Shown here: positions 28,275 to 52,721 of the stretch, in pieces | How positions within the stretch are numbered: position 1 is the stretch's first letter | Layout: each line of letters opens with the position of its first letter | Source: Candidatus Aquiluna sp. IMCC13023 | Lineage (GTDB): Bacteria; Actinomycetota; Actinomycetes; Actinomycetales; Microbacteriaceae | Assembly: GCF_000257665.1 (NCBI RefSeq) | Contig: NZ_AJKR01000003.1 | Location: forward strand, 372,001-436,000 | DNA: 64,000 nt | Reading direction: 5' to 3' | Program-made: the position numbers and the translations under genes | The notes under the pieces: generated by a model | What the model was told of the DNA's origin: nothing | The model's database searches: none | The model's input: only the letters and a program-made list of their open reading frames with translations

Positions 28275-29312
28275 TTATGCGTCCTTCTTGTCTGTGTCTG
28301 CCTCTACGGCTGGGGTTGGCTCCTCAGTTGAAGCTGGTGCCTCTTCAGTCTCAGCGGCAGCTGGTGCCTCTTCAGTCTTAGCGGCAGCTGGTGCCTCTTC
28401 AGTCTTAGCGGCAGCTGGTGCCTCTTCAGTCTCAGCGGCAGCTGGTTTCTTGGTCTCTGCCTTCTTAACTGCTGGCTTCTTGGCCTCTGCCTTTGGAGCT
28501 TCGGTTTCTGGAGTTTCAGTCACTGGAGCCTCGGCCACAACTTCGGTGGCTTCTGCCTTACCCTGCTCTAGCAATTCGCGTTCCCACTCAGCTAGAGGCT
28601 CAGCCTGAGCCTCGTCCTTCGAGTGACGAGCAATCATGCCGTCGGCTGCTGCGTCAGCAATCACCTTGGTCAAGATCTCGATTGAGCGAATAGCGTCGTC
28701 GTTACCTGGAATTCCGATGGTTACATCATCCGGGTCACAGTTGCTATCAAGAATTGCGATCACAGGGATGCCTAGCTTCTTGGCCTCTGTGATTGCTAGG
28801 TGCTCCTTGATGGTGTCAACCACCCAAAGTGCACTCGGAGTCTTCGCCATGTTGCGAATTCCACCAAGTGACTTCTCTAGCTTGTCGCGCTCACGACGGA
28901 AAATTAGTAGTTCTTTTTTGGTGAATGACGACTTGCTGGCGTCTTCAAAATCCATGGTGTCAAGCTCTTTTAGACGCTGGATACGCTTGTTTACAGTGTT
29001 GAAGTTTGTTAGTAGTCCACCCAACCAACGCTGGTTGATGTACGGCTGCCCAACGCGAATAGCCTCGGCGGAGATAACTCCCTGAGCCTGCTTCTTAGTT
29101 CCAACGAACATCACGGATCCGCCATTAGCAACTAGATCGCGAACGAAGTTGTAAGCATCGTCAATGTGCTTGACCGACTGCTGCAGGTCGATGATGTAAA
29201 TGCCGGAACGGTCCGTAAGGATGAAAGGCTTCATCTTTGGGTTCCATCGCTTGGTCTGGTGACCGAAGTGGACTCCCGCGTCCAAGAGTTGACGCATTGT
29301 GATCGTGGCCAA
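28275..29312 (-). CDS. rpsB: 30S ribosomal protein S2 with extended repeat tail
   Basis: Primary-binding small-subunit protein. Conserved blocks: [35 protein letters not shown] and the DTIKEHLA region. The start is TTG at 29312, placed five bases after AAGGAGG; upstream reading lacks conservation. The S2 domain ends near residue 250. Some 95 further residues are Ala/Glu/Lys/Pro-rich and include a tandem repeat (see 28333-28440). Two UUCG hairpins lie in the leader. Confidence 0.96.
28333..28440. repeat. Four tandem 27-bp repeats inside rpsB
   Basis: Four copies of a 27-bp unit (28333-28359, 28360-28386, 28387-28413, 28414-28440), almost identical, encode a nine-residue Glu/Ala/Pro/Thr motif in the C-terminal tail of S2. 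The copies differ only at a C/T position that changes Glu to Lys. The near-identity suggests recent slippage expansion. Confidence 0.9.
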
Positions 29313-29326
29313 TTGGCCCTCCTTTT

Positions 29327-29342
29327 GGACACCGAAGCATCC
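29327..29342 (-). promoter_or_regulatory. UUCG-capped hairpin next to the rpsB Shine-Dalgarno
   Basis: In - strand RNA, GGAUGC-UUCG-GUGUCC forms a six-base-pair stem closed by the very stable C(UUCG)G tetraloop. Its 3' end touches the AAAAGGAGG ribosome-binding site (29317-29326). It could control access to the site or serve as an S2-binding element for autoregulation. Confidence 0.5.
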
Positions 29343-29446
29343 ACTCAGTTTCATGATTCGACCGGTTGGCCTCATCCCTGGCATTCCATTTGACAGCACC
29401 TATTTCTAGGACCGAGTTATCAAATTGATTGGAACACGCGAATTCA

Positions 29447-29466
29447 CTCAATACCGAAGCATTGAG
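29447..29466 (-). promoter_or_regulatory. Second UUCG-capped hairpin in the rpsB leader
   Basis: In - strand RNA, CUCAAUGC-UUCG-GUAUUGAG makes an eight-base-pair stem, again with a C(UUCG)G loop. It sits about 135 bp upstream of the rpsB start, in the 245-bp gap to the divergent secreted-protein gene, and could be part of a structured leader. A -10-like TATGCT occurs about 15 bp further upstream. Confidence 0.5.
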
Positions 29467-29557
29467 AGTGTTACTAGCATACCAAACAAAGTCCTTGTTT
29501 TTCCAGTGCAATTAGGCATTCATCAATCACTGCGGACCTTTTTGCCAATCTCGAGTC

Positions 29558-30025
29558 ATGTTTAGATTATTGGCAATTCTTTCGACCTTGATAACCCTCG
29601 CAAGTCAAGAGTTTCGTCCTCCAGAAATCTGGGCAAAACCCATTCCCTTTTTCCAAGTCGAACACCAATTTTCAGCTCCGGTCTCTCTTTATGGCTCGGG
29701 ACATCGAGGGCTGGATTTCGTCCTGGAAGCTGAGCAAAGTGTTTTGGCACCAACTTCAGGACTGGTAACTTTCTCGGGGCCAGTAGTAGATCGGAACATC
29801 ATAACTAGCAGTGGGTACCTGCTTAGCTTTGAGCAAATATGCTCCTCATTGCTGCCGGGAGATTTCGTTCGACGAGGACAGGAGCTTGGCAAGTTTTGCT
29901 CAATCAACGAAGACTTTGAATCTCACTGTGAAAGCTGCGTGCATTTTTCTGTGAGAAGTGACCGCGGCTACCTAAACCCGGAGCTCTTTCTGGGCACTCT
30001 TATGCCCAGCTTTCTGAAGTTATAA
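29558..30025 (+). CDS. M23/LytM-like secreted protein
   Basis: 155 aa with a short hydrophobic signal (residues 2-15) and a LytM-type metallopeptidase fold: HRGLDF near residue 49 supplies two metal ligands, and CVHFSVR near residue 130 the late His. The first His of the usual H-x-H is Cys, which is common in the actinobacterial group found at this locus. It could be a peptidoglycan endopeptidase or a non-catalytic activator. Divergent from rpsB, as often in actinobacteria. Confidence 0.78.
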   Translation: MFRLLAILSTLITLASQEFRPPEIWAKPIPFFQVEHQFSAPVSLYGSGHRGLDFVLEAEQSVLAPTSGLVTFSGPVVDRNIITSSGYLLSFEQICSSLLPGDFVRRGQELGKFCSINEDFESHCESCVHFSVRSDRGYLNPELFLGTLMPSFLKL

Positions 30026-52341: not shown

Positions 52342-52353
52342 ATATGGGGGTTG

Positions 52354-52721
52354 TGGAGATGGGGGGAATTGAACCCCCGTCCATGACATCGATTATGGCT
52401 CTTCTACGGGTGTAGCTTCAGAATTCGTTCTACTCGGCTCCGGCATTTGTTTGAAGCAACTACGCCGACAAGCCCAGTCAAAGTGAAAAGTCCCAACCGC
52501 ACCTTTGACGCAAGCGGTTAGCTAGATTTCTAAATGACGTCTGGAGCTAGATCGAAATCAAACCTAGTCAGACGGACCTCGAGGCTAGCTATGCAGCTAG
52601 GGCGAAGTCGGCGCGCTTTGTTTTGGCACCTATAGTTTTGAACACATCGTTTACGAGATAAGTGCTCATCCTCGACCCGCTTCATCCACGCAGCAATGCA
52701 ATGTCGAAACCGATCATCCCC
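52354..52721 (-). ncRNA. ssrA: tmRNA
   Basis: Transfer-messenger RNA. Its 5' GGGGATG pairs with 3' CATCTCC; a T-arm (GGGGGTTCAATTCCCCC) lies near the 3' end. The tag reading frame is 52589-52627 and encodes AKTKRADFALAA followed by TAG, with the ALAA protease-recognition end. The 3' CCA is not encoded (CAA follows the discriminator), so it must be added. Length is 368 nt. Sits beside prfB and smpB. Confidence 0.95.

Follow-up and report, generated by a model that had tools for sequence, protein, structure and literature searches.

The window analysed here (a 64,000-nucleotide stretch of an Aquiluna genome) carries on its minus strand the gene for ribosomal protein S2, rpsB, followed by further genes and preceded by a structured leader, whose elements are collected in Table 1. 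The genome falls into the Aquiluna group within the Microbacteriaceae, and the encoded S2 is 98% identical to that of the nearest named record. Judged from the promoter letters, the rpsB transcription start would be expected at approximately 29469–29471, and rpsB-tsf transcripts would carry a leader of ~145–160 nt, a good match to the coordinates 29317–29466 that the first-pass annotation had given for it. A transcription terminator or attenuator in the leader was rejected, as no terminator-like site is found within 29200–29700.

Several features in the surroundings of the leader were also recorded. The TTG start of rpsB is held in a perfect palindrome, GGCCAATTGGCC (29306–29317, minus strand), which could form a mini-hairpin over the start; most congeners exhibit an ATG start for rpsB and are without the palindrome. 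S2 ends in a repeat-containing C-terminal tail of low complexity that is rich in Ala, Glu and Lys (28275–28560, minus strand), and open-frame lengths vary among close relatives. A divergent gene on the plus strand (29558–30025) encodes a short protein resembling an M23-type peptidase domain, with its promoter region abutting that of rpsB, and a tmRNA gene (Rfam RF00023) is present at 52351–52721 (minus strand).

Table 1. Coordinates of the rpsB locus and of the elements of its leader.
Feature	Position	Strand	Details and basis
rpsB (ribosomal protein S2)	28275..29312	minus	TTG start 29312-29310; start agrees with congener alignment and genome-search match
tsf	28273-27446	minus	directly after rpsB; pyrH and frr come next, likewise on the minus strand
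Shine-Dalgarno AAGGAGG	29318..29324	minus	sequence
Predicted extended -10 promoter element TGGTATGCT	29476..29484	minus	sequence and class-wide TANNNT spacing
H1, 5'-terminal hairpin	29447..29466	minus	CTCAATGC-TTCG-GTATTGAG in DNA, CTCAATGC-UUCG-GUAUUGAG in RNA; 8 pairs including one G-U
Unpaired GAAUUCGC, class consensus GAYUWCGC	29438..29445	minus	5' of P1; alignments A3, A5 and 158-sequence alignment
P1 5' strand GUGUUCCA	29430..29437	minus	partner 29381-29388
P3 5' strand UUUGAUA	29418..29424	minus	partner 29389-29395; double changes at all 7 pairs in A3
Pseudoknot 5' strand CUCGGU	29411..29416	minus	partner 29344-29349
P3a apical hairpin CCUA-GAAA-UAGG	29399..29410	minus	covaries in A3 and A5
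P3 3' strand UGUCAAA	29389..29395	minus	covariation in A3
P1 3' strand UGGAAUGC	29381..29388	minus	covariation in A3, A5 and 158-leader alignment
CAGG, conserved, 3' of P1	29377..29380	minus	A5: AGG invariant, C at least 90%; t44-type leaders have GGAGG
P4 hairpin GAUGAGGCC-AACC-GGUCGAAUC	29355..29376	minus	double changes at 7/9 pairs in A3
Pseudoknot 3' strand ACUGAG	29344..29349	minus	covariation in A3, A5 and 158-leader alignment
P5 hairpin	29326..29343	minus	UGGAUGC-UUCG-GUGUCCA; 6 pairs, 7 with outer U-A, including two G-U

The two cUUCGg hairpins

The first-pass annotation had centred on two cUUCGg hairpins in the rpsB leader, with 8 and 6 pairs and the second beside the Shine-Dalgarno sequence, and we were able to confirm both on the minus strand: the 3' end of P5 lies 1–2 nt from AAGGAGG, and H1 and P5 are both present in the MFE and centroid folds of the leader. 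The 64-kb window contains 48 CTTCGG sites, of which H1 and P5 are the only ones exhibiting at least 6 uninterrupted stem pairs (8 and 7, respectively), and against these 2 hairpins shuffled windows contain a mean of 0.27. The folding energy of the whole leader is barely better than that of shuffles (z -1.24), so that single-sequence energy is insufficient for the case, which is made by the comparative evidence instead.

Compensatory changes, which the annotation had named as support for its proposal, are seen in congeners for both hairpins, with both stems preserved; a structured rpsB leader is borne out, and a candidate S2-responsive leader remains the best reading. Each of the 19 Aquiluna-group leaders listed has P5, its stem maintained by compensatory changes (stem variants in the genus: GGAUGC/GUGUCC, GGGCGCA/UGUGCCC, GGGCAU/AUGCCC and UGGACAC/GUGUCCA), whilst class-wide P5 is present in 53% of leaders versus 25% in shuffles: P5 is kept in the genus but not across the class, and was rejected as a universal element. 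A hairpin directly 5' of GAYUWCGC is found in 92% of 202 class leaders versus 11% in shuffles, the H1 stem sequences varying between genomes through paired changes and the loop being variable. The UUCG loop is rare across the class (H1, 3/202 leaders; P5, 6/194), and since the loops vary freely the UUCG tetraloops were rejected as a functional signature. The first-pass reading is therefore supported in part: the structured leader and the stems preserved in congeners stand, but the UUCG loops are incidental and P5 is not kept across the class. The annotation also overlooked the conserved core that lies between H1 and P5 and consists of P1, P3, P4 and a pseudoknot; it is this core that carries the resemblance to the known S2 leader.

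The position of H1 relative to the promoter was compared across the same set: TANNNT is present 22–36 nt 5' of GAYUWCGC in 93% of 202 class leaders versus 9.6% in shuffles, with the distance mostly 24–27 nt (peak 26–27 nt class-wide; 30 nt in the Aquiluna leader). This spacing indicates that, across the class, the mRNA probably begins with H1 at its extreme 5' end.

Covariation in the core between the hairpins

Alignment A3 comprises the rpsB leaders of 20 genomes from the genus and nearby genera. Here, the structure consisting of P1, P3, P3a, P4 and the pseudoknot has 93.2% of its cells paired, compared to 79.7% when shuffled and 32–48% when slid; 21 pairs show changes on both sides (0/500 shuffles) and the covariation score is 0.456 versus 0.186 (0/500 shuffles). 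RNAalifold recovers the nested helices of the Aquiluna group unaided, with double changes at 20 of 27 pairs. The pseudoknot strands are near-invariant within this group, exhibiting A-U and G-U at one pair, and given so little variation the genus alone provides no proof of the pseudoknot.

Leaders from the class Actinomycetes were drawn from ~190 further genomes and 80 GTDB loci, chosen by the 5' sequence anchor only (GAMUWCGC, occurring once and at a plausible distance) and aligned using MAFFT without structure. In the 158 non-redundant leaders the three outermost P1 pairs are 100% standard, with exchanges between GC/AU, CG/UA/UG and GC/GU/AU, and the four inner pseudoknot pairs reach 99–100%, the variable one among them occurring as GC, AU or GU. 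In the class-wide alignment A5 (83 sequences), 82.7% of cells are paired versus 68.1% shuffled and 43–46% slid by one, and there are 348 double-change cells versus 130 shuffled; the shuffle control ignores relatedness, so these are counts rather than probabilities, and we place weight on the slid controls and on the many independent exchanges. In A5, pairing amounts to 98% for P1 and to 99–100% for the four inner pairs of the pseudoknot, with P3 pairing in 63% of cells and P4 in 74%: this weaker pairing is due at least partly to variable lengths and poor alignment. P4 is missing from some Streptomyces leaders (L058 and L101 in A5) and from the t44-type leaders discussed below. The class consensus reads GAcUuCGC-P1-(P3 arm with UCGGUC)-P1'-CAGG-P4-AACcGa-...-aGGag.

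Distribution of the element and searches with published models

The genus model R1 found matches in 11 of 296 genomes and, being too narrow as a class-wide probe, was replaced by R2, a covariance model built from the class-wide alignment. Using stricter filters, R2 had matches in 97 of the 148 class genomes searched; of its 100 matches, 97 lie immediately 5' of rpsB, the remaining three having E above 0.04. R2 also matched 76 of 80 named rpsB loci, mostly from Streptomyces and Nocardioides and with some loci in the training set, gave one match in the Aquiluna genome itself, and in the phylum sample matched a single genome outside the class at E up to 0.1. Some class genomes gave no R2 match, including five of the f75 genomes listed. 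The f75 leaders L228–L231 (genomes of 1.2–2.2 Mb) parse poorly, and a reduced or lost form is possible in f75, where several genomes are without a match.

In E. coli, S2 represses rpsB-tsf via the 5'UTR with S1 assisting, the operator excludes the ribosome-binding site, and the recognition of mRNA by S2 has been termed mechanistically unclear (PMC10931766). The rpsB motif of Meyer et al. 2009 combines a long P1 with P2 and P3 helices that vary or are missing, and its P2-P3 junction forms a pseudoknot with the 3' extension of P1; its range covers Alpha-, Gamma- and few Beta-, Delta- and Epsilonproteobacteria, Cyanobacteria and some Firmicutes, with Actinobacteria unlisted (PMC2704228). The E. 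coli leader, ACACACGUAUC...CCGGGGUGCCC...GGGAUACGU-GGAGG-CAUAACCCC, has the order P1 (ACGUAUC/GAUACGU), P3, and GGGGU before the apical hairpin, which pairs with ACCCC after P1. Neither RF00127 (t44; gathering score 44 bits) nor RF01815 ('rpsB'), which we take to be the motif of Meyer et al. 2009, gave a relevant match when the window was searched as far as E = 10. Other actinomycete leaders, searched as far as E = 5, were likewise without a relevant match, and RF00127 gave none above its cut-off in 149 phylum genomes, with sub-threshold matches upstream of rpsB only outside the class. With RF01815, all 98 class genomes searched were without a match (E up to 1), and R2 gave no match to the E. 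coli leader or to most t44-type leaders. A known Rfam family was rejected both at the gathering score and at permissive E-values, as was membership in t44, no match reaching 44 bits and the letters beside P1 being GAYUWCGC and CAGG in place of CACAC and GGAGG. In the literature searched we found no description of an actinobacterial rpsB leader, an earlier mention in other papers being possible.

In several classes of the phylum other than Actinomycetes, sub-gathering t44 matches are present directly upstream of rpsB (L136–L142, L149 and others), which indicates that the t44 cut-off misses real leaders in those classes. Mixed forms from other actinobacterial classes are L323, L326, L328 and L332, in which UUCGC/UACGC or UCGGUC occurs together with GGAGG and P4 is absent; these intermediates were identified by eye, and the models bridge statistically only L328. 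The latter reads GACUACGC...UUCGGUCC...GGAGG-UCU-AACCGAG, without P4, with AAAUUCGC...CACGGUCC...GGAGG...AACC in L323 and CCACACGC...CUCGGUCC...GGAGG-UCG-AACCGA in L332.

Candidate function and comparison with known systems

The leader probably belongs with the S2 (rpsB) autorepression leaders, as a divergent subtype of the actinomycetes, and S2 would bind to it. Its knotted fold is kept in most actinomycetes sampled, including Streptomyces, and probably represents the lineage's own S2 switch. Topology and gene are the same as for the known S2 leader but the published models do not see it, and we therefore regard it as an unannotated variant and not as a t44 member.

The mechanism that we infer, including the transcription start, S2 as ligand, repression and the mode of ribosome blocking, would proceed as follows: transcription would begin just 5' of H1, with H1 capping the mRNA end, and the core would fold into P1, the asymmetric P3/P3a arm and the pseudoknot between CUCGGU (internal loop 5' of P3a) and ACUGAG, the latter strand lying just upstream of the ribosome-binding site with P4 inserted between it and P1. 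When S2 is in excess over 16S rRNA, S2 (perhaps together with S1, as in E. coli) would bind the P1/pseudoknot core, presumably contacting the conserved unpaired GAYUWCGC and CAGG, and binding would lock the pseudoknot. Located at or near the 30S landing site, the locked pseudoknot would lower translation of rpsB, and also of tsf via coupling; initiation would be hindered without covering the Shine-Dalgarno sequence, in line with the E. coli case (PMC10931766). The pseudoknot 3' strand ends at most 12 nt before the Shine-Dalgarno sequence in 41% of parsed leaders (median 22), numbers that are descriptive only since the anchor parse picks its anchors using pairing, the statistics resting on A3, the 158-leader alignment and A5. 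In the Aquiluna leader, P5 separates the pseudoknot 3' strand from the Shine-Dalgarno sequence.

Functionless UUCG hairpins arising by chance would be in keeping with the unconserved loops and the unremarkable folding energy (z -1.24), but the compensatory exchanges that both stems show among congeners, the frequency of H1 compared to shuffles (92% versus 11%) and the covarying core leave this reading with negligible probability: the comparative sequence data already refute it for H1 and the core, although P5 could still be dispensable. The locking of H1 to the promoter and the free variation of its loop and stem, together with a P5 that leaves the adjoining Shine-Dalgarno sequence unpaired, could also indicate that the leader serves mRNA stability or transcription start without any ligand, by means of a hairpin capping the 5' end and a spacer that together hold the ribosome-binding site open; we consider this very unlikely, as it accounts for H1 and P5 but leaves unexplained the conserved unpaired letters (GAYUWCGC/CAGG), the pseudoknot and the covariation of P1. 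A regulatory leader of the same fold might instead sense a signal other than S2, be it another ribosomal protein, EF-Ts, S1 alone or a small molecule: the recognition letters are unlike those of t44, and tsf (EF-Ts), pyrH and frr lie downstream of rpsB. This appears unlikely given that 97 of 100 model matches precede rpsB, that no good match precedes another gene, and that the S2-responsive leader of E. coli has the same topology and precedes the same gene.

The resemblance to t44 could also have arisen by convergence, with an independent S2 leader in actinomycetes, which we judge distinctly unlikely. Covariance models detect nothing across the two groups in either direction and pseudoknots are a common solution; against this, the gene and the order of P1, P3, pseudoknot strand, apical hairpin and 3' strand are all shared, as is the GGU/ACC pseudoknot core, and mixed forms exist in other classes of the phylum. 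The presence of t44-type leaders and mixed forms outside the class favours common descent over convergence. On balance, we favour, with moderate confidence, a class-specific S2 leader of actinomycetes with its own letters (GAYUWCGC/CAGG) and P4 that would have derived from the t44 type via intermediates surviving in other actinobacterial classes, the fold being kept and the contact letters replaced.

Almost no information is available on ribosomal-protein autoregulation in actinobacteria (PMC8470358). If the S2 reading is true, most actinomycetes, including Streptomyces, have an unannotated regulatory RNA before an essential ribosomal-protein gene; the series from the t44 type to the actinomycete type would then allow one to ask how an RNA switch can exchange its conserved letters and still respond to the same ligand, and the natural leader variants would be a ready set for mapping S2-mRNA recognition.

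Comparison with t44 (RF00127) reveals that both leaders lie directly upstream of rpsB, have P1 capped by the P3 arm, form a pseudoknot with a GGU/ACC core between a strand preceding the apical hairpin and one that follows P1, and exhibit conserved short unpaired stretches flanking P1 on both sides. The differences lie in the letters beside P1, which are CACAC/GGAGG in t44 but GAYUWCGC/CAGG in the actinomycete leader, and in the addition of P4 (between P1 and the 3' pseudoknot strand) and of H1 at the mRNA end. The rpsB motif of Meyer et al. 2009 is likewise a leader of rpsB, and its architecture of P1 and pseudoknot is matched here, with both covarying. The mycobacterial rpsO leader (PMC8470358) differs in gene, protein and structure and is a precedent only: it too is an actinobacterial ribosomal-protein leader, and its autoregulation is pseudoknot-dependent.
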